Assembly (NCBI RefSeq): GCF_016462955.1
Contig: NZ_JAEMSD010000004.1
Location: 19,745 to 54,961, forward strand
Origin: Bradyrhizobium sp.
GTDB lineage: Bacteria > Pseudomonadota > Alphaproteobacteria > Rhizobiales > Xanthobacteraceae
Reading direction: 5' to 3'
DNA: 35,217 nt
Below the pieces are notes generated by a model. It was not told the origin of the DNA and ran no database searches. It worked only from the letters and a program-made list of their open reading frames with translations. Positions 14,314-29,528 of the stretch are shown here, in pieces (within the stretch, counting starts at the first letter, position 1; every line of letters begins with the position of its first letter). The position numbers were made by a program, and so were the translations under genes.

Positions 14314-15627
14314 TCAGATTGACTGGCGCAGTGGGCGGAATGCGGTGCGAATCTCCGCCGTGAACAATGCGGGCTGCTCCCAGGCTGCGAAGTGACCGCC
14401 CTTGTCGAGACGGTTGTAGTGCATCAGCCTCGGATAGGCTTTCTCGGCCCAGCTGCGCGGCGCTGCATAGATCTCGTCGGGAAAGACGCTGACGGCGACG
14501 GGAATCTGCACGTGCTTTGGCGCGAAGAACACCAGCTTGTTCTCCCAATAGAGCCGCGCCGACGAGACCGCGGTGTTGGTGAGCCAGTAGAGCGTGATGT
14601 TGTCGATCACATCGTTCCGCGACAGGCCTTCCGTCTTGCCGTCGAAGACGCGCGCGATCATCGCGGCGCTACGCGCATCATGGTCGAGTATCCAGGACGC
14701 GAGGCCCGCGGGCGAGTCGACCAAGCCGTAAAGCGTCTGCGGCCGGTTGGACATCTCGATCGCATAGCCGAGGCCGTGCTTGTAGAAATCGTCGAGCTGA
14801 TCGTAGGCGATGCGCTCCTCCGCCGAGAGGTTCGCCGGTCGCGTTCCGCCCGGCTGAAGTGCCTTGGCGATATCGTCGGGGACGGTGGCGGGCATGTTGG
14901 TGTGGATGCCGAGCAGCTCCGGCGGCGCGATCAGCGCCATCTGTTCGGTGACCGCATTGCCCCAATCACCGCCTTGCGCCACGTAGCGGGTGTAACCGAG
15001 ACGCTTCATCAGCACGATCCAGGCGCGCGCGATACGCTGCGGATCCCAGCCGAGCGTGGTCGGCTTGCCGGAGAAGCCGTGACCGGGCAGCGAGGGAATG
15101 ACCAGATCGAATGCGTCCCTGGCGTGCCCGCCGTGCGCAGTCGGATCGGTGAGCGGATCGATGATCTTGATCTGCTCGATAATCGAGCCGGGCCATCCAT
15201 GCGTGACGATCATCGGCAGCGCGTTTTCGTGCCGCGAGCGGACGTGAATGAAATGGATGTCGACGCCGTCGATCTCGGTGACGAATTGCGGCAGGGCGTT
15301 CAACCGCGCTTCGATCTTGCGCCAGTCGTAATCGCTCTGCCAATAGCGCACGAGTTGCTGCACTGTTCTCAGCTGCACACCTTGCGACTGGTCCGTGACG
15401 ATCTCGCGATCCGGCCAGCGCGTTGCTGCCAGGCGACGGCGCAGGTCGAGCAGGTCCTCCTTGGGCACGTTGACGCGGAACGGATGGATCTCCTCGCTCG
15501 CGGCAGCCTTCGCCGGATGCAGCGGCAGCAGGCTCGATACACCGGCGGCAACGGCTCCCATCGCGGCCTGGCCCAACAGTTGACGGCGATCGGGGTTGAA
15601 GATGTCGGCGCGTGCCTGCGTGGTCAT
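14314..15627 (-). CDS. Exported epoxide hydrolase (EHN-domain alpha/beta hydrolase)
   Basis: The 437-residue precursor has an N-terminal Tat-like export signal (DRRQLLGQAAMGAVAAGVSSLLP, then AKAAA), then the epoxide hydrolase N-terminal domain (IHPFRVNVPKEDLLDLRRRLAATRWPD). The alpha/beta hydrolase core follows: VTHGWPGSIIE as oxyanion motif, QGGDWGN with the nucleophilic Asp, and LDKGGHFAAWEQP with the catalytic His. This is the microsomal-type epoxide hydrolase family, which opens epoxides to diols. AAGGGAG precedes the ATG. It is the first gene of a five-gene minus-strand operon, and about 100 bases upstream is a three-unit TAAC repeat array (15726-15755). Confidence 0.93.
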   Translation of the reverse strand: MTTQARADIFNPDRRQLLGQAAMGAVAAGVSSLLPLHPAKAAASEEIHPFRVNVPKEDLLDLRRRLAATRWPDREIVTDQSQGVQLRTVQQLVRYWQSDYDWRKIEARLNALPQFVTEIDGVDIHFIHVRSRHENALPMIVTHGWPGSIIEQIKIIDPLTDPTAHGGHARDAFDLVIPSLPGHGFSGKPTTLGWDPQRIARAWIVLMKRLGYTRYVAQGGDWGNAVTEQMALIAPPELLGIHTNMPATVPDDIAKALQPGGTRPANLSAEERIAYDQLDDFYKHGLGYAIEMSNRPQTLYGLVDSPAGLASWILDHDARSAAMIARVFDGKTEGLSRNDVIDNITLYWLTNTAVSSARLYWENKLVFFAPKHVQIPVAVSVFPDEIYAAPRSWAEKAYPRLMHYNRLDKGGHFAAWEQPALFTAEIRTAFRPLRQSI

Positions 15628-15725
15628 TGCGGATCTCCCTTGCTATGGTCGGTGGCGATGGCCGATCTCGATATCGGGCCATCGTTGCGTCGTGCATGGA
15701 GATTGACCCAGCCCCTGTTGCTTGG

Positions 15726-15755
15726 CGAGTTATCGGTTGTTAGACCTCGTTAGCC
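15726..15755 (-). promoter_or_regulatory. TAAC-repeat operator A, upstream of the epoxide hydrolase operon
   Basis: Read toward the operon, the strand carries CTAACGAGGT, CTAACAACCG and ATAACTCGCC: three TAAC units at exactly 10-bp steps (GTTA at 15729, 15739 and 15749 on the plus strand). The same array occurs at four other promoters of this block. A weak -10-like TCAATC lies about 20 bases downstream. A further GCGAGG block on the far side is shared with operator E. Confidence 0.65.
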
Positions 15756-16657: not shown

Positions 16658-17323
16658 TCAGGCGGTAGCCGGCATTTCGATGGAGATCCGAGTGCCGCCC
16701 TCCCCCGCTTCGCCGTTCAGGCGAGCGTGAATGCTGCGCGCAAGCCCTTCCAGGATACGGCTGCCGGTGCCCCGGAGCTGACCTGTCGCACCAATGCCGT
16801 TGTCGGCCACCGTGCAGATCCATGCGCCATCTCGGGGGACGATCTCGATCCGGATGAACGCCTCATTCTTGTTCGGGAAGGCGTGTTTCGCCGCATTCGT
16901 GACCAGTTCGGTAATCATCAGCGCAAGCCGATGACATTGTGACGCCGGCAGAACGCCGCCTTCGACCAAAGCCTCGCAGCGGACTCCGGCGGGCTCCAAG
17001 ACCGCTGCCGAAAGTGCTTCGCAAAGGTTCTCAAAGAAGGTCGCGACGGACACGGACGGCTCGTCGCGGTTAGAAAGCAGTTGGTAGAGCCTGCCAAAGG
17101 CGCAGATTCGCCGCTCGAACCGATCCACCGCTCCCGAAACGTCCCGGCTGCCGGCGCGGGTGAAGTCGCGGCGGACCGAGGCGCCCAGCAGTGTCAGCGT
17201 GTTCTTCATGCGGTGATGGGATTCCTGCAGCACGAGCTCCCAATCTCGCGATTGATCCTCAAGGCCGGAAGCAAACTGAGATCGAACGGTACTGCCGTTC
17301 GGAATGGAGCCGATGGCGGACAT
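16658..17323 (-). CDS. Orphan HisKA_2/HWE-like sensor histidine kinase (no sensor domain)
   Basis: The 221-residue protein is a bare kinase core. The phospho-acceptor box is LVLQESHHRMKNTLTLL (His at about 36), followed by a helical dimerisation region. The ATPase domain has the N-box LALMITELVTNAAKHAF and the G-box CTVADNGIGATG, ending GTRISIEMP. This HisKA_2 type is common in Rhizobiales. It has no membrane helix, PAS or receiver domain, so its input must come from another protein, and no response regulator is in the window. The start is the ATG at 17323, six bases after GGGGAGG, rather than the track's 17362. A TAAC array lies about 60 bases upstream. Confidence 0.9.
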   Translation of the reverse strand: MSAIGSIPNGSTVRSQFASGLEDQSRDWELVLQESHHRMKNTLTLLGASVRRDFTRAGSRDVSGAVDRFERRICAFGRLYQLLSNRDEPSVSVATFFENLCEALSAAVLEPAGVRCEALVEGGVLPASQCHRLALMITELVTNAAKHAFPNKNEAFIRIEIVPRDGAWICTVADNGIGATGQLRGTGSRILEGLARSIHARLNGEAGEGGTRISIEMPATA

Positions 17324-17385
17324 GATAGCCTCCCCGTTGGTTGGAACTGGCGTGAGCCTCATACTGGCTGCGCAGCGTGGGTTTG

Positions 17386-17414
17386 GCTCGTTAGACGTTG
17401 CGAGATTCTGTTAT
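17386..17414 (-). promoter_or_regulatory. TAAC-repeat operator B, upstream of the histidine kinase
   Basis: Toward the kinase, the strand reads ATAACAGAAT, CTCGCAACGT and CTAACGAGC. Outer TAAC units lie exactly 20 bp apart (plus-strand GTTA at 17390 and 17410), with a degenerate middle unit. The CTAACGAGC end matches operators C, D and E. A -10-like GTATGA lies about 25 bases downstream. Confidence 0.5.
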
Positions 17415-17544
17415 GATCGGCGCGGACGCAATCCAAATCGGACTCTCCTGCGGCGACCTCGACCGTGCTGACGAATTGTCGCGGCGGCGCGATAAGCTGC
17501 TCACGTTATAGCAAAAAGGCTGGGTTCCGGGTCTCGCTCTCAAC

Positions 17545-17571
17545 GCCTAACAATACTTAACGAGCTAACAG
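17545..17571 (+). promoter_or_regulatory. TAAC-repeat operator C, upstream of the hydrolase pair
   Basis: The plus strand carries CTAACAATAC, TTAACGAG and CTAACAGG. TAAC units are at 17548, 17558 and 17566, with the first two at a 10-bp step and the third at 8 bp. The core is close to operators D and E. It lies 45 bases before the ATG of the first hydrolase, placing it at the promoter. Confidence 0.55.
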
Positions 17572-17615
17572 GCCGCTTCGGGTGCAGATTGCGCTCGCGA
17601 CATCGGAGCGATGAC

Positions 17616-18572
17616 ATGAGCATTCCAGCGACCCTCGCCCTCTCAGCGGCCCTGGCTTGCGCGACCGTGCAGGCTTCGGCCCACGATCTGCGGTCGAGCC
17701 GCCGTACGATAAGCTATCACACGGTCGATATAGGCGGCCTCAAGGTCTTCTATCGCGAAGCCGGCCCGCCAGACGCGCCGACCGTGCTCCTGCTGCACGG
17801 CTTCCCTTCCTCCTCGCGGATGTGGGAACCGTTGTTGCCCCTGCTTGCGGACCGATACCATCTGATCGCGCCCGATTATCCCGGCTTCGGCAACAGCAGC
17901 GCGCCATCGCCTTCCGATTTCACCTACACCTTCGACAACATCTCCGGCGTGATCGGCGAACTCACGACCAGGCTCGGTCTCACCAGCTACGTTCTCCTGA
18001 TGCAGGACTATGGTGGTCCGGTGGGCTTCCGCATGGCACTGGACCATCCGGAACGTGTGCGCGCTATGATCATCCAGAACGCTGTTGCACACGAGCAGGG
18101 TTTGAGCCCGCTCTGGGAAGCACGTCGCAAATACTGGGCCAATCCCGCGCATGAACTCGAGGCGCTCAAGGCGAACTTCACGTCTCTCGAGGCGACGCGT
18201 CAGCGCCACCTCGGCTCGAGCCCACATCCCGAGCGCTACGATCCGGACGCTTGGCTCGATGAATACGCCTTTCTCACGCGTCCCGGACAGCCTGAGATCC
18301 AGACGAGGTTGTTCCTGGACTACCGAACCAATGTCGCGTCCTACCCGCAATGGCAGGATTGGCTGCGCAGGACGCAACCTCCGATCCTGGTGACGTGGGG
18401 CAAGTACGATCCCTCCTTCACGGTTGCCGGCGCGAGCGCCTATCGCGACGATGTCCCGACTGCGGAAGTCCACATCCTGGAAGCCGGCCACTTCGCACTG
18501 GATGAAGCGACCGACGAGATTGCCACCTTGGTCCGCGACTTTCTTGCACGGCTCGAAGGGCAAAAGGGCTGA
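17616..18572 (+). CDS. Exported alpha/beta hydrolase (haloalkane dehalogenase/epoxide hydrolase-like)
   Basis: The 318-residue precursor has a Sec signal peptide (MSIPATLALSAALACATVQASAHD). The alpha/beta hydrolase core shows VLLLHGFPSSSRMWEPLLPLL (oxyanion motif), LLMQDYGGPVGFRMA with Asp at the nucleophile position, ILVTWGKYDPSF (acid segment) and EAGHFALDE with the catalytic His. An Asp nucleophile points to a dehalogenase or epoxide hydrolase rather than an esterase. The start is the ATG at 17616, eight bases after GGAG; the track's 17589 begins before the signal peptide. Operator C lies just upstream, and a second hydrolase follows on the same strand. Confidence 0.92.
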   Translation: MSIPATLALSAALACATVQASAHDLRSSRRTISYHTVDIGGLKVFYREAGPPDAPTVLLLHGFPSSSRMWEPLLPLLADRYHLIAPDYPGFGNSSAPSPSDFTYTFDNISGVIGELTTRLGLTSYVLLMQDYGGPVGFRMALDHPERVRAMIIQNAVAHEQGLSPLWEARRKYWANPAHELEALKANFTSLEATRQRHLGSSPHPERYDPDAWLDEYAFLTRPGQPEIQTRLFLDYRTNVASYPQWQDWLRRTQPPILVTWGKYDPSFTVAGASAYRDDVPTAEVHILEAGHFALDEATDEIATLVRDFLARLEGQKG

Positions 18573-19707: not shown

Positions 19708-19770
19708 CACCTCTGCTGCTTGGATGAGAGATCCGTGTTTTTACGGCGTTTTCTTCGGTTATGCAGCGCC

Positions 19771-19791
19771 ACTTAACAACGCTTAACGAGC
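19771..19791 (+). promoter_or_regulatory. TAAC-repeat operator D, upstream of the hypothetical gene at 19849
   Basis: The plus strand reads CTTAACAACG CTTAACGAGC, two TAAC units exactly 10 bp apart (19774 and 19784). This differs from the second and third units of operator E only in the base before each TAAC. CATACC, a fair -10 sequence, starts 17 bases after the array. Confidence 0.6.
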
Positions 19792-19848
19792 GATCATCCG
19801 CATTTGGGCATACCTGTAAGGGCAGTTCTCACGAAGGAAAATCGACGG

Positions 19849-20571
19849 ATGATTGCGCTGCTGGCGAATGCGATTGAGGCTCATGGGGGCCTGAACCGAT
19901 GGAATGCCCGCGAGCGCCTCACCGCCACTTTCGCGATGGGCGGCGACGTTTGGGCCCTGAAAGGCGTTGAACAGGATCATCTGCAGCGAACCGTGCGGAT
20001 TGACCTTCGTCGTGGCCAGGCTCTCATTGAGCCGTTTGGAAGAAGCGGCCAACACAGCGAGTTCAGCCCCGAGCGGGTCGCCATCGTTTCCGCCGACGAA
20101 CGTGTCGTCGCCGAGCGAAAAGACCCGCGCACCTCATTCGCGCGGCACGACATGCGGACGCATTGGGATCCGCTGCACCGAATCTACTTTGAAAGCTGCG
20201 CCCTCTGGACCTGCCTCACCACGCCGTTCCTGCTTTCCGAGAAACCTTCGGAAGTCCACGAGATCGAGCCATGCCTTGAGGGAAGTGAGGTGTGGCGGGG
20301 GCTGCGGGCGACCTTCTCGCCGGCGATCGCAAGCCACAGCATCGAGCAGGACTTCTACTTCGGTCCCGACCTGCTCATTCGCCGCCATGATTATCGAGTC
20401 GAAATAGCAGGGAATTTTCCCGTCGCTGAGTACGTGTCCAACCCCGTCGACGTCGACGGCATCAAGATCCCCACGAGACGGCGCACCTATCTGCGTGACG
20501 AGACGACCCTGGCGCCGATGCTCGATACGCTGATGATATCCATCGATCTCTGGGATTTGCGGTTCGACTGA
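19849..20571 (+). CDS. Hypothetical protein of the TAAC-box regulon
   Basis: The 240-residue protein has no signal peptide and no membrane helix (IALLANAIEAHGGLNRWNARERLTATFAMGG). The body is beta-rich with a repeated strand pattern (QDFYFGPDLLIRRHDYRVEIAGNFPVAEYVSNPVDVDGIKIPTRRRTYL). This recalls lipoprotein-carrier-like half barrels, but I cannot name a family and assign no function. The start is the ATG at 19849, which follows GAAGGAAAA; the track's 19804 lies inside the promoter. It sits alone behind operator D and is convergent with the large regulator, whose stop is only 11 bases away, so its expression is probably tied to the same control. Confidence 0.82.
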   Translation: MIALLANAIEAHGGLNRWNARERLTATFAMGGDVWALKGVEQDHLQRTVRIDLRRGQALIEPFGRSGQHSEFSPERVAIVSADERVVAERKDPRTSFARHDMRTHWDPLHRIYFESCALWTCLTTPFLLSEKPSEVHEIEPCLEGSEVWRGLRATFSPAIASHSIEQDFYFGPDLLIRRHDYRVEIAGNFPVAEYVSNPVDVDGIKIPTRRRTYLRDETTLAPMLDTLMISIDLWDLRFD

Positions 20572-20586
20572 CCCTGAACCGGTCAG
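20568..20586. terminator. Small symmetric hairpin overlapping two convergent stop codons
   Basis: CTGACC and GGTCAG pair around a seven-base loop. The left arm contains the TGA of the plus-strand hypothetical gene and the right arm the TGA of the minus-strand regulator. It could act in both directions but is short and lacks T-runs. Confidence 0.3.
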
Positions 20587-23486
20587 GCGAGCGACGAATC
20601 GAGCATGAGCCGAGCGGCCTTTAGATCAGCCGTCTCAAACCCTTCCGAGAACTTCGCATAAGTCGCGGCAAGCTCCTCCAGGTGACTTCGCGTTCTCTGC
20701 TCACGCCTCAGACGCGCCATCGACATATCAGTCCGCAATCGCCAGGAGAGCGCGCCCTGCTGGTCAGCCAACGCAGCCGACGACCGGAGACTTGATTCTG
20801 CGGCATGAAGATCCTCATTGCGCAGCTCCAGTTCCGCCCGCACGCGCAAGAGCTCCGGCATGTCGAAGGCGCCGCCAGCAAGCTCGATGCGCGCGATCGC
20901 TTCGTTCAGTATTCCAAGTCCATCGGACGGTTGCCCGAGTTCGGCCAATCCCCAAGACAGGTCCGCAACGAATGCGGACGCGTAGAGCTCGTAGCGATCA
21001 GCATGCAGGCGCGGAAGTGCGATTCTCAGCAACTCGACACCGCCGCGCAAATCCCCGCCGGCGATCATCGTCTGCGCCCGGAAACCGGCCGCGACCGCCT
21101 GGTAGGGCGCGAGCCCATGCAGGCCGGCATGCGTCTCGAGCCGACCGGCCATCGCCTCGACCGCGGTCCAGTCTCCGATCCACCCGTACAGCGAGGCGGA
21201 CCAGCAGAGCGCAATACAGTGCATGACGACATCCCGAGGCGCGCCGGTACCCGTCAGTGGACGAGCACATTCCACGGCTCGATCTGGAAAGCCGCGCAGC
21301 CATAACACGCGAGCAAGCGGTATCTGCGGTGTTCTGGAATAGGCGAAATGGCCGGGTTGCGCCTCGCGTAGGGCCGCGTCGTTGCGTACGCCTTCGTCGA
21401 GATGAAGCTGCGCCTCGGCCTGGTTGCCGACGAGATGATGGGATACCCCGATGAGGGCCTTTGCGCCGGCGATACCCGCCGCATCACCGATCAGACGAGC
21501 GACGCGCTCGGCCTCAAGTGCCACCGGCAGCAGATGCCGATAGTCGCCGGTCCGGCGATAGAACATGTTCAGCCGCGCCAACAGCCTGAATGTGTTGGCT
21601 TCGTCTCCGATCGCGGCCGCGATCTCGAGTCCGCGTCGAAGTGCGGCCTCGGCTCGCTCGCTGTTGCGTTCCGTGAACATGAAGGCATGACCGAGCGTGG
21701 CCTGAAGCTCCAGCTCCCACTTGCCGCCGCGGTGGCGGTCGTCCAGAACGGAAAGCGCGCGCTCAGACCATAAGCGCGCCTCATTGAGCAGGTTGAGCTC
21801 GACGAACAGACGTGCACAACTGCCTGCGAGCGGAACACGAAGCTCGTCACCGTCATCGTGAGCGTAGCTCCATTGAAGCGCGGCGCGGGCGTCCGCCAAC
21901 AGGCCGCCGCGGCCGAGCGCAGGCAACATCCGATCTGCAGAGCCAGAATCGACCATGCCCGCTTCGAGGGAGCGGTGAATATGTTCGGCGTGACGCCGCG
22001 CTGCGTCCTGGGCTTGGCCGCTCTCACCGAGCTTGTGAAGCGCATAGGCGCGGGTGGCGTCGAGCAGGCGGAAGCTTCGCGTCAAGCGGCCCGGTTGCGT
22101 CGACAACAGCGACTTGGCTACCAGTTGCTCCAGTGCGTCGACCGCACCTTCGACAGGCTCCCCCTCTTCCACCACCACGGCAATCGCATCCTGCAGCGTG
22201 AAGGGCCCGGCAAAGACGGCGAGACGCTGAAGGACCAGCCTCTCGGCCTCGCCAATCAGACCGAAACTCCAGTCAAGCGTGGCGCCGAGCGTCTGTTGCC
22301 GCGGCGGCGCCGTGCGTCGTCCACGCCACTCGAGCTTGAGCCGGCCATCGAGCAAATTTGCTATCTCCAGCAAGCCGTAAACGCCAACGCGTGCGGCAGC
22401 GAGTTCGATCGCCAGCGCAATGCCGTCAAGCTTGCTGCAAATATCTGCAAGAACCTGCGCATCCTGGTCGGTGATCTCCAAGCGGTGGCCGGCGGCAGCT
22501 GCACGTTCGGCGAAAAGACGCGCGGCCGGATAGCTCAGCACCTCACCGGCGTTGAGCCCAGAGCCCTGCGGAGGGCTTGGTAGCGGAACGAGTTCGTAAA
22601 TGTGTTCTCCCTGCACCAATAGCGACTCGCGACTGGTCGCAAGAATGGTGATGCCGGACGCCTCGCGGTGAATCGTCTCTGCCAGACGGGCAACGTCGTC
22701 GATCACATGTTCGCAGCTATCGAGCACGAGAAGCAGCCGACGATTGCGAAGAAAACTGACGATGCTTTCGGTTGGGTTGGCGTGATGAACGACGAGGCCC
22801 AGAGCAGCGGCCACCGTGGAGGCAACGAGCGTCGTATCCTTCAAGGGGCCAAGATCGAGAAAGTGGATCTTGCCGCCGAACTCCTCCCACATCTTATGCG
22901 CGATCGCGACGGCAACGGTTGTCTTGCCAATGCCGCCCGGTCCCCTCAGAGTGACGAAGCGCTCGCTCAGCAGACGTGCCGAGAGCTCGGCCAGGACGTC
23001 CTCTCGTCCGACCATTCGGTCGAGGCGATATGGGAGTGCGGAAGACGGGTCCATCGCACCGGCGTGGTTCTGCGGGATCTCCGCCGGCGCCGAATTGCGT
23101 TCGCCCCGTCTCACGGGCGCGACGAAGCAATACCCTCGGCTCGGAATATTGGTGATATAGCGGGCTCCGTCCTTCCCATCGCCCAGGGCTTTCCGGAGTT
23201 CGGCAACGTGCACGCGCAGGCTGATCTCTTCTACTGCGAGGCCAGCCCACACATATGCGAGGATGTCATTCTTCGGCACGACTTCGCCGGCGCGATCCAC
23301 AAGCAGGCGCAGGATGTCAGTTGCTCGGCTGCCAAGCTTGACTGGCAACCCGTCCTTTTCGAGGATTCGTGATCGAAGAGAAAACGGGCCGAACGTGACC
23401 GGATCGAAATCCCGGCCTGCCCCGGTGTTGCTGTGAGGGGAGCCGGTCGCTGCTTCCGGTTGTGTGCTGCTCTTGGAAGAGTTCAT
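20583..23486 (-). CDS. wHTH (OmpR/PhoB-type) - NB-ARC-like ATPase - helical repeat transcriptional regulator
   Basis: The protein is about 967 residues. Residues about 31-125 form an OmpR/PhoB-type winged helix (FGPFSLRSRILEKDGLPVKLGSRATDILRLL, PKNDILAYVW, VAELRKALGD and YITNIPSRGYCFVAPV). A STAND/NB-ARC-like ATPase follows, with Walker A GPGGIGKTT (182-190), Walker B LLLVLD (251-256) and the sensor-like ILATSRE. The C-terminal half is helical, TPR-like repeats (ALRRGLEIAAAIGDEANTFRLLARL and ALEAERVARLIGDAAGIAGAKALIGVSHHLVGNQ). Such proteins (AfsR/CadC-like architectures) switch on ATP and ligand binding; there is no receiver domain, so phosphorylation by the orphan kinase is not obvious. The start at 23486 is chosen because the wHTH follows at normal distance; the ribosome-binding site is weak. 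It is convergent with the hypothetical gene and is the best candidate to bind the TAAC arrays. No TAAC array lies upstream of this gene itself. Confidence 0.9.
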   Translation of the reverse strand: MNSSKSSTQPEAATGSPHSNTGAGRDFDPVTFGPFSLRSRILEKDGLPVKLGSRATDILRLLVDRAGEVVPKNDILAYVWAGLAVEEISLRVHVAELRKALGDGKDGARYITNIPSRGYCFVAPVRRGERNSAPAEIPQNHAGAMDPSSALPYRLDRMVGREDVLAELSARLLSERFVTLRGPGGIGKTTVAVAIAHKMWEEFGGKIHFLDLGPLKDTTLVASTVAAALGLVVHHANPTESIVSFLRNRRLLLVLDSCEHVIDDVARLAETIHREASGITILATSRESLLVQGEHIYELVPLPSPPQGSGLNAGEVLSYPAARLFAERAAAAGHRLEITDQDAQVLADICSKLDGIALAIELAAARVGVYGLLEIANLLDGRLKLEWRGRRTAPPRQQTLGATLDWSFGLIGEAERLVLQRLAVFAGPFTLQDAIAVVVEEGEPVEGAVDALEQLVAKSLLSTQPGRLTRSFRLLDATRAYALHKLGESGQAQDAARRHAEHIHRSLEAGMVDSGSADRMLPALGRGGLLADARAALQWSYAHDDGDELRVPLAGSCARLFVELNLLNEARLWSERALSVLDDRHRGGKWELELQATLGHAFMFTERNSERAEAALRRGLEIAAAIGDEANTFRLLARLNMFYRRTGDYRHLLPVALEAERVARLIGDAAGIAGAKALIGVSHHLVGNQAEAQLHLDEGVRNDAALREAQPGHFAYSRTPQIPLARVLWLRGFPDRAVECARPLTGTGAPRDVVMHCIALCWSASLYGWIGDWTAVEAMAGRLETHAGLHGLAPYQAVAAGFRAQTMIAGGDLRGGVELLRIALPRLHADRYELYASAFVADLSWGLAELGQPSDGLGILNEAIARIELAGGAFDMPELLRVRAELELRNEDLHAAESSLRSSAALADQQGALSWRLRTDMSMARLRREQRTRSHLEELAATYAKFSEGFETADLKAARLMLDSSLA

Positions 23487-23791
23487 TCCGGGTGCGCGCC
23501 TTGTCGCCAAGGATACGGCGAGCGCGCGGCACTGCGTAACCTCGACTGCGATTTCGGTGAGCCAGAGTATAGGCAGGGCCGGACCGAAACACAACGGATC
23601 CGCGCGAGTCGGCTTCCGGCTTTGAGCTGCCTATCTTGAGCTCAATCAGCGCCTATGGCGACGCTCAAGGCCGACACGTGTCGGCGTTCGACCGAACGGC
23701 GCCCACCAGCCCATGCGATAGCCCATCGAAATCAAGGAGGGCATTGCCGCGCATGGGAAGGCCAGCTGTCTTCGGTCGATCGATCGGAAGA
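23487..23791. other. Regulator upstream region, no gene supported
   Basis: About 300 bases between the regulator start and the end of the crotonase gene. The overlapping short plus-strand frames look like shadows, and the minus-strand extension of the regulator to 23594 has no clear start signal. The regulator promoter must lie here, but I cannot point to it. Confidence 0.4.
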
Positions 23792-24688: not shown

Positions 24689-25336
24689 TCACGCGGCTGA
24701 CGCTGCGGAATTCATTGCCGACAACGCCTCGACGATTTCCTGCGTGGTCACGATCGCGCTGGCGTAGTTCGGCATGTTGATCTCCAGCGCGGCCCGCATC
24801 ATGTCGTCGGAATAATCGGCAACTGCGTCCTTGACGACCGTCACGTCGTATCCGAGCTCGGCAGCAAAGCGCACGGTCGCCTCTATACATGTGTGAGCGA
24901 CCAGCCCTATGACGATCAGCCGCTGGATGCCATGCCGCTTGAGCTGCAGATCGAGGTCGGTATTCGCGAAGCCGCTGGAACACCAATGTTCGTCTGCCAC
25001 GATCTCTCCGGGCGCCGGCACGAATTCTGCGCGAAACTCTCCACCCCAGGTGCCGAATTCGAAGCTCTTGTTATTCCAGGCTCTCCTTTGAATCGGCGCG
25101 ATGTATTTCCAGGAAGCATAATCACCGGGCCGGTAACGGTGATGCATGGCATAACAAACACGAATGCCGGCGTCCCGAGCGGTCTGTAGCACTTGGATCA
25201 TGTGCGGAACGCAGTCGTTGCTTTCGGCCACGGCCTTGATCCGGGGCCAGATCTTGCCTCCCTCCGAGATGAAGTCGTTGTAGGGATCGACCACCAGCAG
25301 GGCAGTGATTTCCTTCTCATAGGACAGTTGTGTCAT
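24689..25336 (-). CDS. Isochorismatase-like cysteine hydrolase
   Basis: The 215-residue protein has the isochorismatase fold: ITALLVVDPYNDFISEGGKIWP with the catalytic Asp, a long insert with several aromatics (YAMHHRYRPGDYASWKYIAPIQRRAWNNKSFEFGTWGGEF), LDLQLKRHGIQRLIVIGLVAHTCIEATVRFAAELGYDVTVVKDAVADYS with the nucleophilic Cys, and the Ala-rich end. Where many relatives have a catalytic Lys before the SxF motif, this protein reads VADEHWCSSGFANT, so the Lys seems replaced. AAAGGAGAG precedes the ATG at 25336. The 437-residue track ORF fuses this gene to a shadow frame of the upstream gene. It is the middle gene of the operon behind operator E; the substrate is unknown. Confidence 0.9.
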   Translation of the reverse strand: MTQLSYEKEITALLVVDPYNDFISEGGKIWPRIKAVAESNDCVPHMIQVLQTARDAGIRVCYAMHHRYRPGDYASWKYIAPIQRRAWNNKSFEFGTWGGEFRAEFVPAPGEIVADEHWCSSGFANTDLDLQLKRHGIQRLIVIGLVAHTCIEATVRFAAELGYDVTVVKDAVADYSDDMMRAALEINMPNYASAIVTTQEIVEALSAMNSAASAA

Positions 25337-25353
25337 CGAACTCTCCTTTCGGG

Positions 25354-25881
25354 CTACCGGTTGTTCTGCAGCGCTGCGCGCTCGATGCTGGCGGCAAACA
25401 GCGGCGTTTCGCTCTGGTTGTGAGCGATCGAGAAGGGCTGGCGCTGCGCCCGGAACAGCTCGAACGGAATGCCCTGCTTGCCGATGAATGTCATGAACTC
25501 GTCCGTGGCATGCGTTTTGACCCTGTTGGTGAACTCGCATTTTCCCGGTTCGATTTCCTTGACGCTCAGCTCCCAGGTCACGTGAATAGTGGTCCGCCCG
25601 TTCGGCGTGAAGACGTCGGATGTGGAGTCGAGGATCAGGTGATCTTTGCGGCCGAGCGTTTCCACGTAATGCTGAACCATGAGGCTGCCGCCGATGATCT
25701 CGACATTGATCGACATGCGCTTGCCATCGGGCGTGGTCGTGAAGCCCGCGGCGATATGCGCAGGCGAACAGCCCTGATATTCGCGCTCGGACAGATTGAA
25801 GCACCAATTGGGGATATCGATCCGATCGATCGGCGCATTGATGATTGCGGTGAAGCTGGAATCGACGATCTGGTTGTTCAT
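25354..25881 (-). CDS. Hypothetical protein, SRPBCC-like
   Basis: The 175-residue soluble protein starts MNNQIVDSSFTAIINAPIDRIDIPNWCFNLSEREYQGCSPAHIAAGFTT. It continues as alternating strands (MSINVEIIGGSLMVQHYVETLG, DHLILDSTSDVFTPNGRTTIHVTWELSVKEIEPGKCEFTNRVKTHA) and ends in a helix (ATDEFMTFIGKQGIPFELFRAQRQP). The strand order and closing helix resemble the START/SRPBCC lipid- or ligand-binding fold, but the match is by eye only. The start is taken at the ATG at 25881 after GGGAGATCAAGAG; the track's 26004 extension has no family-like sequence. It is the first gene of the three-gene operon behind operator E. Confidence 0.82.
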   Translation of the reverse strand: MNNQIVDSSFTAIINAPIDRIDIPNWCFNLSEREYQGCSPAHIAAGFTTTPDGKRMSINVEIIGGSLMVQHYVETLGRKDHLILDSTSDVFTPNGRTTIHVTWELSVKEIEPGKCEFTNRVKTHATDEFMTFIGKQGIPFELFRAQRQPFSIAHNQSETPLFAASIERAALQNNR

Positions 25882-26025
25882 CTCTTGATCTCCCAATGTG
25901 TTGCATGTCATCGGCACGTTCGAGCCGAAGCCTTTCGCGGATCCGCACGGGGCAGATCCTCGCCGTACATTCGGCATTGGATTGCCGCTGTCCTGCGAAC
26001 ACATTGCTACGGGCGGCCGCCGTTT

Positions 26026-26055
26026 GCTCGTTATGCGTTGTTATGGTTCGTTAGC
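26026..26055 (-). promoter_or_regulatory. TAAC-repeat operator E, upstream of the SRPBCC/cysteine hydrolase/crotonase operon
   Basis: Toward the operon, the strand reads CTAACGAACC, ATAACAACGC and ATAACGAGC: three TAAC units at exactly 10-bp steps (plus-strand GTTA at 26030, 26040 and 26050). This is the best-preserved copy together with operator A, including the flanking GCGAGG block. A TAGCAAT -10-like element lies about 20 bases downstream. Confidence 0.65.
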
Positions 26056-27682: not shown

Positions 27683-28393
27683 TCAGTGGCCGGCGCTCTG
27701 GCCGCCGTCGACATGCAGGATCTCGCCGGTGACAAAGGAAGCACCCTCTAGATAGAGGACCGCATCGACGATGTCGGACATCTCGCCCATGTGGCCGACC
27801 GGGTGCAGCGCGTCGAGCTGAGCATGCGTCGCGACCGGATGCATCGGCGACTTGATGATCCCAGGCGACACCGCGTTCACTCGGATGCCGCGCTTGGCAT
27901 ACTCGATCGCAAGCGACCGGGTCGCGGCATTCAGCCCGCCTTTGCTCAGCGAAGCCAATACCGACGGCACGTTCGAATTGGCCTGATCGACCAGGGTCGT
28001 GGTGATCTGGACAATATGACCCGACCCCTGCTTTTCCATCTCAGCAATCGCGAGTTGCGTGATGTTGAAGAAGCCCGCGGTGTTCGTTCCCATCACCGCC
28101 GCATAGTCCTCGGCCGTGTATTGCGTGAACGGCTTTGCGACGAAGATGCCGGCGTTGTTGACCAGCGTGTCGACCCGACCGAAGCGGGCGATCGCCTGCG
28201 AGACCGCGCGCTCGGCGGTGGCCCGGTCGGCGATGTCGCCGGCAACGGCGAGGATTTCATCATCGTTCGATGGCTTGACGGAGCGCGCCGTCGCGACGAC
28301 GCGGTAGTTGCGATTGCGAAAACCCTGGACCAGGGCGGCGCCAATCCCCTGCGACGCACCGGTGATGATGGCGACCTTCTGCTCGATACCCAT
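27683..28393 (-). CDS. SDR family oxidoreductase with non-canonical active site
   Basis: The 236-residue protein has the classical SDR Rossmann fold: TGASQGIG nucleotide-binding loop (11-18), the DTLVNNAG strand (about 75-82), NTAGFFN and the RVNAVSPGIIKSPM segment, ending FVTGEILHVDGGQSAGH. At the YxxxK site it reads ASLSK, so the catalytic tyrosine is alanine (A147) while K151 stays. The usual serine is also not in place (QITTTLVD). The start is the ATG at 28393, with AGGAG seven bases upstream, not the track's 28774. It is the first gene of the operon divergent from LysR. An inverted repeat (GCCAGC/GCTGGC) sits 32 bases upstream of the start. Confidence 0.9.
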   Translation of the reverse strand: MGIEQKVAIITGASQGIGAALVQGFRNRNYRVVATARSVKPSNDDEILAVAGDIADRATAERAVSQAIARFGRVDTLVNNAGIFVAKPFTQYTAEDYAAVMGTNTAGFFNITQLAIAEMEKQGSGHIVQITTTLVDQANSNVPSVLASLSKGGLNAATRSLAIEYAKRGIRVNAVSPGIIKSPMHPVATHAQLDALHPVGHMGEMSDIVDAVLYLEGASFVTGEILHVDGGQSAGH

Positions 28394-28424
28394 GAGAGGC
28401 TCCTGTTGCTGGTTTGGAAGCTCC

Positions 28425-28440
28425 GCCAGCACTGGCTGGC
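28425..28440. promoter_or_regulatory. Inverted repeat in the SDR/LysR divergent region
   Basis: GCCAGC and GCTGGC are separated by four bases, 32 bases before the SDR start. A second, shorter pair (AGGCT/AGCCT, spacer eight) lies at 28555-28572 before the LysR gene. Either could be a LysR-type operator half-site pair, but neither has the T-N11-A shape clearly. Confidence 0.3.
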
Positions 28441-28604
28441 TTGGCTCTTCACGTACGGTGCGCCGGCTTCCTTGCGAATATCCGCAGCCCGGCAGACACT
28501 CTTTCGCCAGGCGAACGAATGCGGCGCCGACGTCTTGCGGCGGTTGTCGAGGTGAGGCTGAACGCCTAGCCTGCAGCCGGAACCTGATAATGCGGCGGGA
28601 CGGC

Positions 28605-29528
28605 ATGGATCGACTGGATGCGATGAAGGTGTTCGTCCTTGCGGTGGACGAGGGAAGCTTGGCTGCGGCGGGGCGCAAACTCGGCCGCTCTCCGGCCGCG
28701 GTGAGCCGCGCAATTGCTTTCCTGGAGGAGCGTGTCGGCGCCGAGCTGCTGCACCGGACCACGCGATCCATCAAGCTGAGCGAGGAGGGCGAGCGCTATG
28801 TCGAGGTTTGCCGCCGCGTCCTCGCCGAGCTCGAGGAGGCCGAGGACATCGCAATTGGAGCGCGCGCGGCGCCGCGCGGCCTTCTCACGATCACGGCTCC
28901 CGTCGTGTCGGGCGAGATGGTCCTGCGCCCCATCCTCGATGCGTTCCTTGACGCCTATCCCACCGTGTCGGCGAAGCTCCTGCTGTTCGATCGCGCGGTC
29001 AATCTGATCGAGGAGGGCGTCGACGTCGCGCTTCGCATCGGTCCTTTGGCGGATTCGGCGATGACCGCCATGCGGGTCGGCGAGATCAGCCGTGTCGTCG
29101 TGGCGGCTCCGCGCTATCTGAAGCAGCATCCGCGCATTGCCGAGCCCGGCGACCTCGCCAAGCACCAGATCGTCGCCATGGCGCATCTGCCCAATTCCTG
29201 GACGTTCGCGCCGCAGGCCGGCTCGTCAGCGCCGCGCACCGTCCAATTCACTCCGCGCCTGATCGTCAACAGTACCTATGCGGCAGTCGCCTCCGCGGTC
29301 GCCGGACGTGGCGTGGCACGGATGTACTCGTACCAGGTGGCAGAGCCCCTCGCACGCGGCGACCTCGAGATCGTACTTGCTGATGAAGAAGATCCGCAGA
29401 TGCCTGCGCATCTGATTTGCCCGCAAGGCCGGCTCTCGGTGCCAAAGGTGCGAGCCTTCACCGACTTTGCAGTGCCGCGCCTGAAAAAGCAGTTTGCAGA
29501 GCTGAAGAAGCGGATCAGACCGCGCTGA
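28605..29528 (+). CDS. LysR family transcriptional regulator
   Basis: The 307-residue protein has the N-terminal HTH (MDRLDAMKVFVLAVDEGSLAAAGRKLGRSPAAVSRAIAFLEERVGAELLHRTTRSIKLSEEGERY), the linker helix and a periplasmic-binding-protein-like effector domain (GLLTITAPVVSGEMVLRPILDAFLDAYPTVSAKLLLFDRAVNLIEEGVDVALRIGPL). The start is the ATG at 28605; an in-frame ATG at 28590 is possible and the track's 28308 is an upstream extension. It is divergent from the SDR, tautomerase and MFS operon, so by the usual LysR arrangement it probably controls that operon. The effector is unknown. Confidence 0.93.
   Translation: MDRLDAMKVFVLAVDEGSLAAAGRKLGRSPAAVSRAIAFLEERVGAELLHRTTRSIKLSEEGERYVEVCRRVLAELEEAEDIAIGARAAPRGLLTITAPVVSGEMVLRPILDAFLDAYPTVSAKLLLFDRAVNLIEEGVDVALRIGPLADSAMTAMRVGEISRVVVAAPRYLKQHPRIAEPGDLAKHQIVAMAHLPNSWTFAPQAGSSAPRTVQFTPRLIVNSTYAAVASAVAGRGVARMYSYQVAEPLARGDLEIVLADEEDPQMPAHLICPQGRLSVPKVRAFTDFAVPRLKKQFAELKKRIRPR

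Follow-up and report, generated by a model that had tools for sequence, protein, structure and literature searches.

Five arrays of short TAAC repeats, here called A to E, stand in front of five genes within a 35,217-nt stretch of the genome of a Bradyrhizobium sp. (hereafter the window; see Table 1), which raises the question of which protein reads them. Based on the sequence alone, an earlier note had proposed as their likely reader a large regulator encoded inside the block (R1), and this proposal is supported by the genome-wide exclusivity of the arrays, by patterns of presence and absence across 199 congeners and by the recurrence of the same pairing in other genera including Pseudomonas. 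The support from comparative genomics comes with the limit that relatives encode a second candidate reader, the paralogue R2, which is able to keep arrays without R1. With this limit in mind, we put the probability that R1 is a STAND-class activator directly reading the five TAAC arrays of the cluster at roughly 80%, a reading in which both direct binding and activation are predicted from sequence. R1 had also been described as the sole regulator of the block, and it is indeed the only recognised DNA-binding regulator from A to E, though a HisKA_2/HWE histidine kinase is encoded there as well.

Table 1. Coordinates, strand and basis of assignment for features of the window.
Feature	Position	Strand	Basis
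Epoxide hydrolase (EHN + abhydrolase), predicted target	14314..15627	-	Pfam
Operator/promoter A: three 10-bp TAAC units, 5' of epoxide hydrolase	15700-15753	-	sequence model
-10 slot of A: CAATCT	15700-15705	-	
HisKA_2/HWE histidine kinase without recognised sensor domain, predicted target	16658..17362	-	Pfam
Operator/promoter B: TAAC, TCGC, TAAC in 10-bp steps, 5' of histidine kinase	17360-17412	-	sequence model
-10 slot of B: CAGTAT	17361-17366	-	
Deletion scar relative to G133: 84 bp in place of 4.9 kb, containing array C	17515..17598		
Operator/promoter C: TCTC unit and two TAAC units, 5' of alpha/beta hydrolase	17537-17591	+	sequence model
-10 slot of C: CAGATT	17585-17590	+	
Alpha/beta hydrolase, predicted target	17589..18572	+	Pfam
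Operator D: two TAAC units and a degenerate upstream unit	19765-19807	+	sequence model
D gene, family not recognised, weak LolA-like fold, predicted target	19804..20571	+	Pfam, fold search
-10 slot of D: TACCTG, weak	19811-19816	+	
R1: wHTH-NB-ARC-TPR (STAND) transcriptional regulator, 967 aa	20583..23486	-	ORF, Pfam, AF2, Foldseek
R1 TPR-like helical repeat region, residues 492-966	20589..22013	-	AF2 secondary structure, Foldseek 6mfv
R1 NB-ARC ATPase core, residues 165-288	22623..22994	-	Pfam, homologue alignment
R1 OmpR/ToxR-type winged-helix DNA-binding domain, residues 30-121	23124..23399	-	PF00486, PDB sequence matches, AF2
Isochorismatase-family hydrolase (ORF residues 233-420; ORF start upstream-extended), predicted target	24689..26002	-	Pfam, gene order in L148
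Operator/promoter E: three TAAC units, 5' of isochorismatase operon	26000-26054	-	sequence model
-10 slot of E: CAATGT	26001-26006	-	
LysR-type regulator, just beyond the array block and next to an SDR gene	28308-29528	+	

The five arrays reported earlier are real features of this DNA. All are co-oriented with the gene behind each of them and have their units at exact 10-bp steps; six TAAC pairs at this distance were seen in the window compared to 0.01 expected, with no more than one pair in any of 300 second-order Markov simulations. A model of 56 positions trained on 42 arrays of other genomes, with the window excluded, detected A to E and no other site in the window at E<=1, and at the same threshold the whole 7.44-Mb host assembly (87.7% complete, 894 contigs) contains exactly these five sites. 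By the same search of window and assembly, the promoter of R1 itself carries no array, as had been stated before. The weighted consensus of 215 unique sites is gCTc.CaacgcCTAACAAc.CaTAACGaGCcA. Each array consists of three and often four direct repeats of ca. 10 bp (consensus cTmrCrAcgc-cTAACAAcnc-aTAACGaGCcA), the fourth, upstream unit being present in many operators. Tandem direct repeats of 10 to 11 bp located upstream of or over the -35 region, as expected for recognition by OmpR/PhoB-type proteins, are exactly what these arrays present. A spacing of TAAC-N7 gave zero matches, leaving a period of 10 bp, and a chance or coding artefact is excluded by the simulations, the position of the arrays 5' of genes and the reversed-pattern control, which matched at 7 sites compared to more than 150 for an exact 14-base array pattern found in 75 of the 199 Bradyrhizobium genomes.

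The R1 open reading frame starts with an ATG at 23486, with an upstream TTG as alternative (20583-23594), and Pfam recognises a Trans_reg_C domain (PF00486; residues 48-121, E 1e-13) followed by NB-ARC (PF00931; residues 165-288, E 3.5e-7, over the curated cut-off). An AlphaFold2 model with 49 homologues as input (mean pLDDT 88, pTM 0.79) arranges the protein as a winged helix, a P-loop ATPase with WH module and an unbroken series of helical hairpins from ca. 492 to 966, and among PDB folds Foldseek ranks a TPR-sensor STAND protein (6mfv) and Apaf-1 in its ADP-bound form highest; the TPR assignment comes from this fold, with no Pfam TPR match behind it. Both Walker A (GPGGIGKT, residues 182-189) and LLVLDSCEH are intact, with G184, G185, G187, K188 and D256 invariant across the 49 homologues, so that R1 shows the features of STAND proteins that can be checked by sequence and fold, i.e., a P-loop NB-ARC with Walker A/B and a superhelical sensor. 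Around 40 residues separate the winged helix from NB-ARC, including a linker of low model confidence (129-148). No receiver domain was matched by Pfam, and residues 1-47 are domain-free and largely disordered in the model, so that R1 lacks the receiver with phospho-acceptor Asp that marks OmpR/PhoB response regulators. These results bear out the earlier picture of a winged helix joined to an NB-ARC-like ATPase and TPR-like repeats, built as a STAND-type switch and not as a phosphorylated response regulator; by analogy with STAND proteins, R1 may be gated by ADP and ATP through its TPR sensor. The assignment of the DNA-binding domain to the OmpR/PhoB type holds at the level of the OmpR-type family, but its sequence lies nearer to ToxR (7nmb, E 3e-12) and CadC (5ju7, E 4e-8) than to PhoB, which is matched among PDB sequences as well, as is OmpR. 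ToxR and CadC, its closest solved relatives, are membrane proteins with periplasmic sensors, whereas the winged helix of R1 is followed by a STAND ATPase and TPR region.

Within Bradyrhizobium, the arrays follow the regulators closely. The array model (E<=1e-3) matches in 81 of 81 congeners with R1 (called at >=66% identity) or R2 compared to 13 of 118 without, and a strict pattern in 67/81 compared to 8/118; these counts weigh more than any p-values because the genomes are related and regulator loci supplied the training data of the model. All nine congeners with R1 only match the model, and genomes with R1 at merely 66-73% identity (G021, G067, G081, G101, G103 and G189) have two to eight good array sites each. 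Among the 13 congeners with array matches in the absence of R1 and R2, another member of the family adjoins the array in G034, G052 and G174, while G047 and G087 have no family member near their remote array at a MOSC-oxidoreductase gene. In several Bradyrhizobium genomes, we observed this remote conserved array 5' of a MOSC-YiiM-FAD/NAD-2Fe2S oxidoreductase fusion of ca. 600 amino acids (L129, L131, L134-L139).

The most serious competitor for the arrays is R2, a paralogue with 41-44% identity to R1 that is encoded 1-6 kb from it in most relatives. Comparison with G133, a relative of ca. 95% identity, shows a clean loss from the window of 4.9 kb including R2 and the genes following it, and R2 was not found elsewhere in the host assembly; two paralogue fragments at contig edges (C477, C269) were dismissed as a hidden R2, being nearest to another clade at 54-57%. 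The recognition helices predicted for R1 (SLRVHVAELRKAL) and found in R2 (SLRFHITTLRKAL) are of the same type with a near-identical motif, and the strict array pattern occurs in 28 of 41 genomes with R2 only. Since R1-only and R2-only genomes both carry arrays, either paralogue alone seems able to maintain the operators, and association by itself is no proof that R1 and not the lost R2 built them, because R2 holds arrays without R1. It could be, then, that the arrays were built for and are read by R2 together with its divergent kinase, with R1 controlling only the D gene or something else and most arrays of the window being relics. The kinase indeed tracks R2 as its divergent neighbour in ca. 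55 loci, is orphaned in the host genome and carries a frameshift in G073 (L055), a genome whose cluster has likewise lost R2; the array B site lies 5' of the kinase in 14/14 relatives examined. Furthermore, frameshifts or stops disrupt R1 in G061, G148, G126 and G127 (L104-L107), where R2 and arrays are kept, and three of these four genomes retain R2-type arrays without the D gene and D array. Against this stand the arrays in every R1-only genome, including the lineages with diverged R1, the restriction of both the D gene ortholog and the D-type array to loci with R1 or an R1-like homologue, and single-regulator loci with the same operator in Rhizobiaceae and Pseudomonas. On balance, we consider R2 as the proper reader unlikely.

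The same operator extends well beyond the genus. In Rhizobium, Ensifer, Phyllobacterium, Skermanella and Pseudomonas, we found TAAC repeats with a 10-bp period beside diverged homologues (32-45% identity), in front of genes for epoxide hydrolase, OsmC-like/Ohr proteins or flavodoxin. Of 50 homologue loci from outside Bradyrhizobium, 18 have TAACN6TAAC in the 900 bp preceding the regulator, compared to 0 of 50 for every one of three control windows. Among all 256 4-mers, TAAC recurs most often at a period of 10 in these loci (tied with its own reverse complement), and spacings of 7, 8, 9, 12 and 13 bp never occur, with 11 bp seen in 2/50. A minimal version is found on pRL9 of Rhizobium johnstonii 3841, where TAACAAAATCTAACAATGCATAACGGGC, the sole match to TAACAANNNNTAACG on this replicon, lies between one regulator homologue (38%) and a divergent epoxide hydrolase-VOC-Ohr operon; Ensifer canadensis and Phyllobacterium share this arrangement, with the match confined to the regulator locus. 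In 14 of 15 genomes of Pseudomonas and related organisms, TTAACAACNNTTAACTC occurs once or twice genome-wide and mostly at the regulator locus, with zero matches for the reversed control. In Pseudomonas, where the arrays take the form ATTAACAACGnTTAACTCG, the gene behind them encodes a flavodoxin/FMN-reductase, an AraC-type regulator of short length or an alpha/beta hydrolase. The placement of Pseudomonas arrays before both an AraC-type regulator and a flavodoxin gene (L179-L216) suggests a two-step regulatory circuit. Not every member of the family has the operator, since close homologues of Variovorax and Paraburkholderia as well as the pRL11 locus have no exact array nearby.

Behind the arrays, 74% of 104 nonredundant Bradyrhizobium promoters have a hexamer of the form NANNNT at a single offset, 27 bp from where the last TAAC begins, compared to a mean of 3.9% over offsets; in other genera, this offset or the next one is occupied in ca. 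70% together. With the hexamer taken as -12 to -7, the array units cover -59 to -50, -49 to -40 and -39 to -30, and this fixed spacing puts the -35 region under the last repeat; a -35 consensus was not seen there at the array promoters. The positions of these -10 slots imply that the open reading frame starts at 17362, 17589, 19804 and 26002 lie too far upstream. The true starts are probably ATG 17616 for the alpha/beta hydrolase and ATG 19849 for the D gene, while that of the kinase is probably internal because ATG 17362 overlaps the -10 of array B. The geometry of the array promoters is of the class II activator type and suggests that R1 would act as such an activator where promoters lack a -35 consensus. 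Alternatively, R1 might be a repressor released upon induction, with arrays occluding the -35 region, and their overlap with this position would suit a repressor as well; yet no conserved -35 element is left, which fits dependence on an activator, and a known protein of the wHTH-NB-ARC-TPR type, AfsR, is an activator (PMC10936776). Repression is, to us, slightly less probable even than a role for R2 as the reader. That the reader is encoded elsewhere (e.g., the nearby LysR-type protein or an unlinked response regulator) and the R1 gene is a co-conserved passenger is highly improbable, despite some arrays in other genomes lying far from any R1 or R2 gene, because the pairing persists across wholly different targets (epoxide hydrolase in Alphaproteobacteria, flavodoxin or AraC-type genes in Pseudomonas), which makes the regulator the common denominator, and because tandem repeats at 10 bp are well suited to a winged helix of the OmpR type, whereas LysR sites are dyads.

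By analogy with STAND proteins, a ligand or partner at the TPR domain of R1 would cause exchange of ADP for ATP and oligomerisation, resulting in cooperative DNA binding, with a single protomer on each 10-bp unit and, because the units repeat at ca. 10 bp, several protomers on one face of the helix. Binding at A to E would then turn on the epoxide hydrolase, the alpha/beta hydrolase, the isochorismatase operon, the uncharacterised D-gene protein and the kinase. The closest known system is AfsR of Streptomyces coelicolor, a STAND activator composed of SARP, NOD and TPR parts that binds two 11-bp repeats over the -35 region centred at -29.5 (PMC10936776). R1 shares with it the order of an N-terminal OmpR-type DNA-binding domain, a STAND NOD and a TPR part as well as direct repeats over a poor -35, but Pfam matched no bacterial transcriptional activation domain behind the winged helix of R1, unlike in AfsR, and instead of two 11-bp repeats, its arrays have three to four units of 10 bp, the final two being centred near -40. 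By these features R1 falls outside the SARP/AfsR group, and its type differs further in its proteobacterial hosts and detoxification-type targets. The SARP-LAL protein PimR is likewise a large ATP-binding regulator with three tandem units in its target promoter, heptamers (CGGCAAG) at 11-bp steps (PMC5930380). Unlike R1, PimR has a SARP domain, an operator off the -35 and a single target gene, which belongs to an antibiotic cluster. MalT/GutR-type activators combine a STAND ATPase and a TPR-type sensor acting on repeated boxes, though the HTH of MalT is C-terminal and LuxR-type, in contrast to the N-terminal winged helix of R1. PMC10936776 names them as STAND proteins.

Array targets recur across loci as epoxide hydrolases, VOC/glyoxalase, OsmC-like/Ohr and DJ-1/PfpI proteins, flavodoxin reductases, MOSC-ferredoxin-reductase fusions and hydrolases. 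Because these are of detoxification type, the inducer would be an electrophilic or otherwise toxic organic compound, and we infer that stress from electrophiles, epoxides or quinones is a better match for them than N-heterocycles. The D-gene protein, 240 amino acids when read from its probable start (19849-20571, +), has no obvious signal peptide and no matches in Pfam, NCBIfam or PHROG, and its model is of low confidence (pLDDT 67) with weak LolA-like matches; a role as partner or carrier of the inducer is possible. Members of its family adjoin R1 convergently and also lie directly 3' of R2, behind arrays. More tentatively, and with the odds somewhat against it, R1 may represent a family of STAND activators in Alpha- and Gammaproteobacteria that resemble AfsR but lack the SARP activation domain, share one operator code (TAAC units, 10-bp steps, fixed -10) and serve as NLR-like cytoplasmic sensors of reactive or electrophilic compounds, with three to four protomers assembling into an ordered oligomer on the array as template.

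In the open-access subset of the literature, searches for this protein type, operator and cluster returned only Streptomyces SARP work, which is weak evidence of novelty, and no paper there assigns an operator to wHTH-NB-ARC-TPR proteins or describes their proteobacterial branch. Such proteins are annotated merely as "winged helix-turn-helix domain-containing protein", though here the sequence reveals an operator, a promoter architecture and a target class that persist across bacterial orders. The operator code is a route to regulon prediction for uncharacterised homologues, a short array reporter makes the question of the inducer directly testable, and R1 would be a bacterial STAND transcription switch to set against NLRs and Apaf-1. 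The R1/R2 pair on near-identical operators, with R2 lost here, forms a natural experiment on paralogue specificity.

Proteins of wHTH-NB-ARC-TPR architecture are numerous in rhizobia, with several in many congeners. The motif [SN]LR[VF]H is common to array-bearing and array-less homologues, and residues of the recognition helix give no clear separation between them. A related regulator clade (L109, L111, L115), partly in tandem copies, adjoins a variant array, TCTAACATTTTCTAACG, and has Q for H in the recognition helix, possibly reflecting a shift in specificity.
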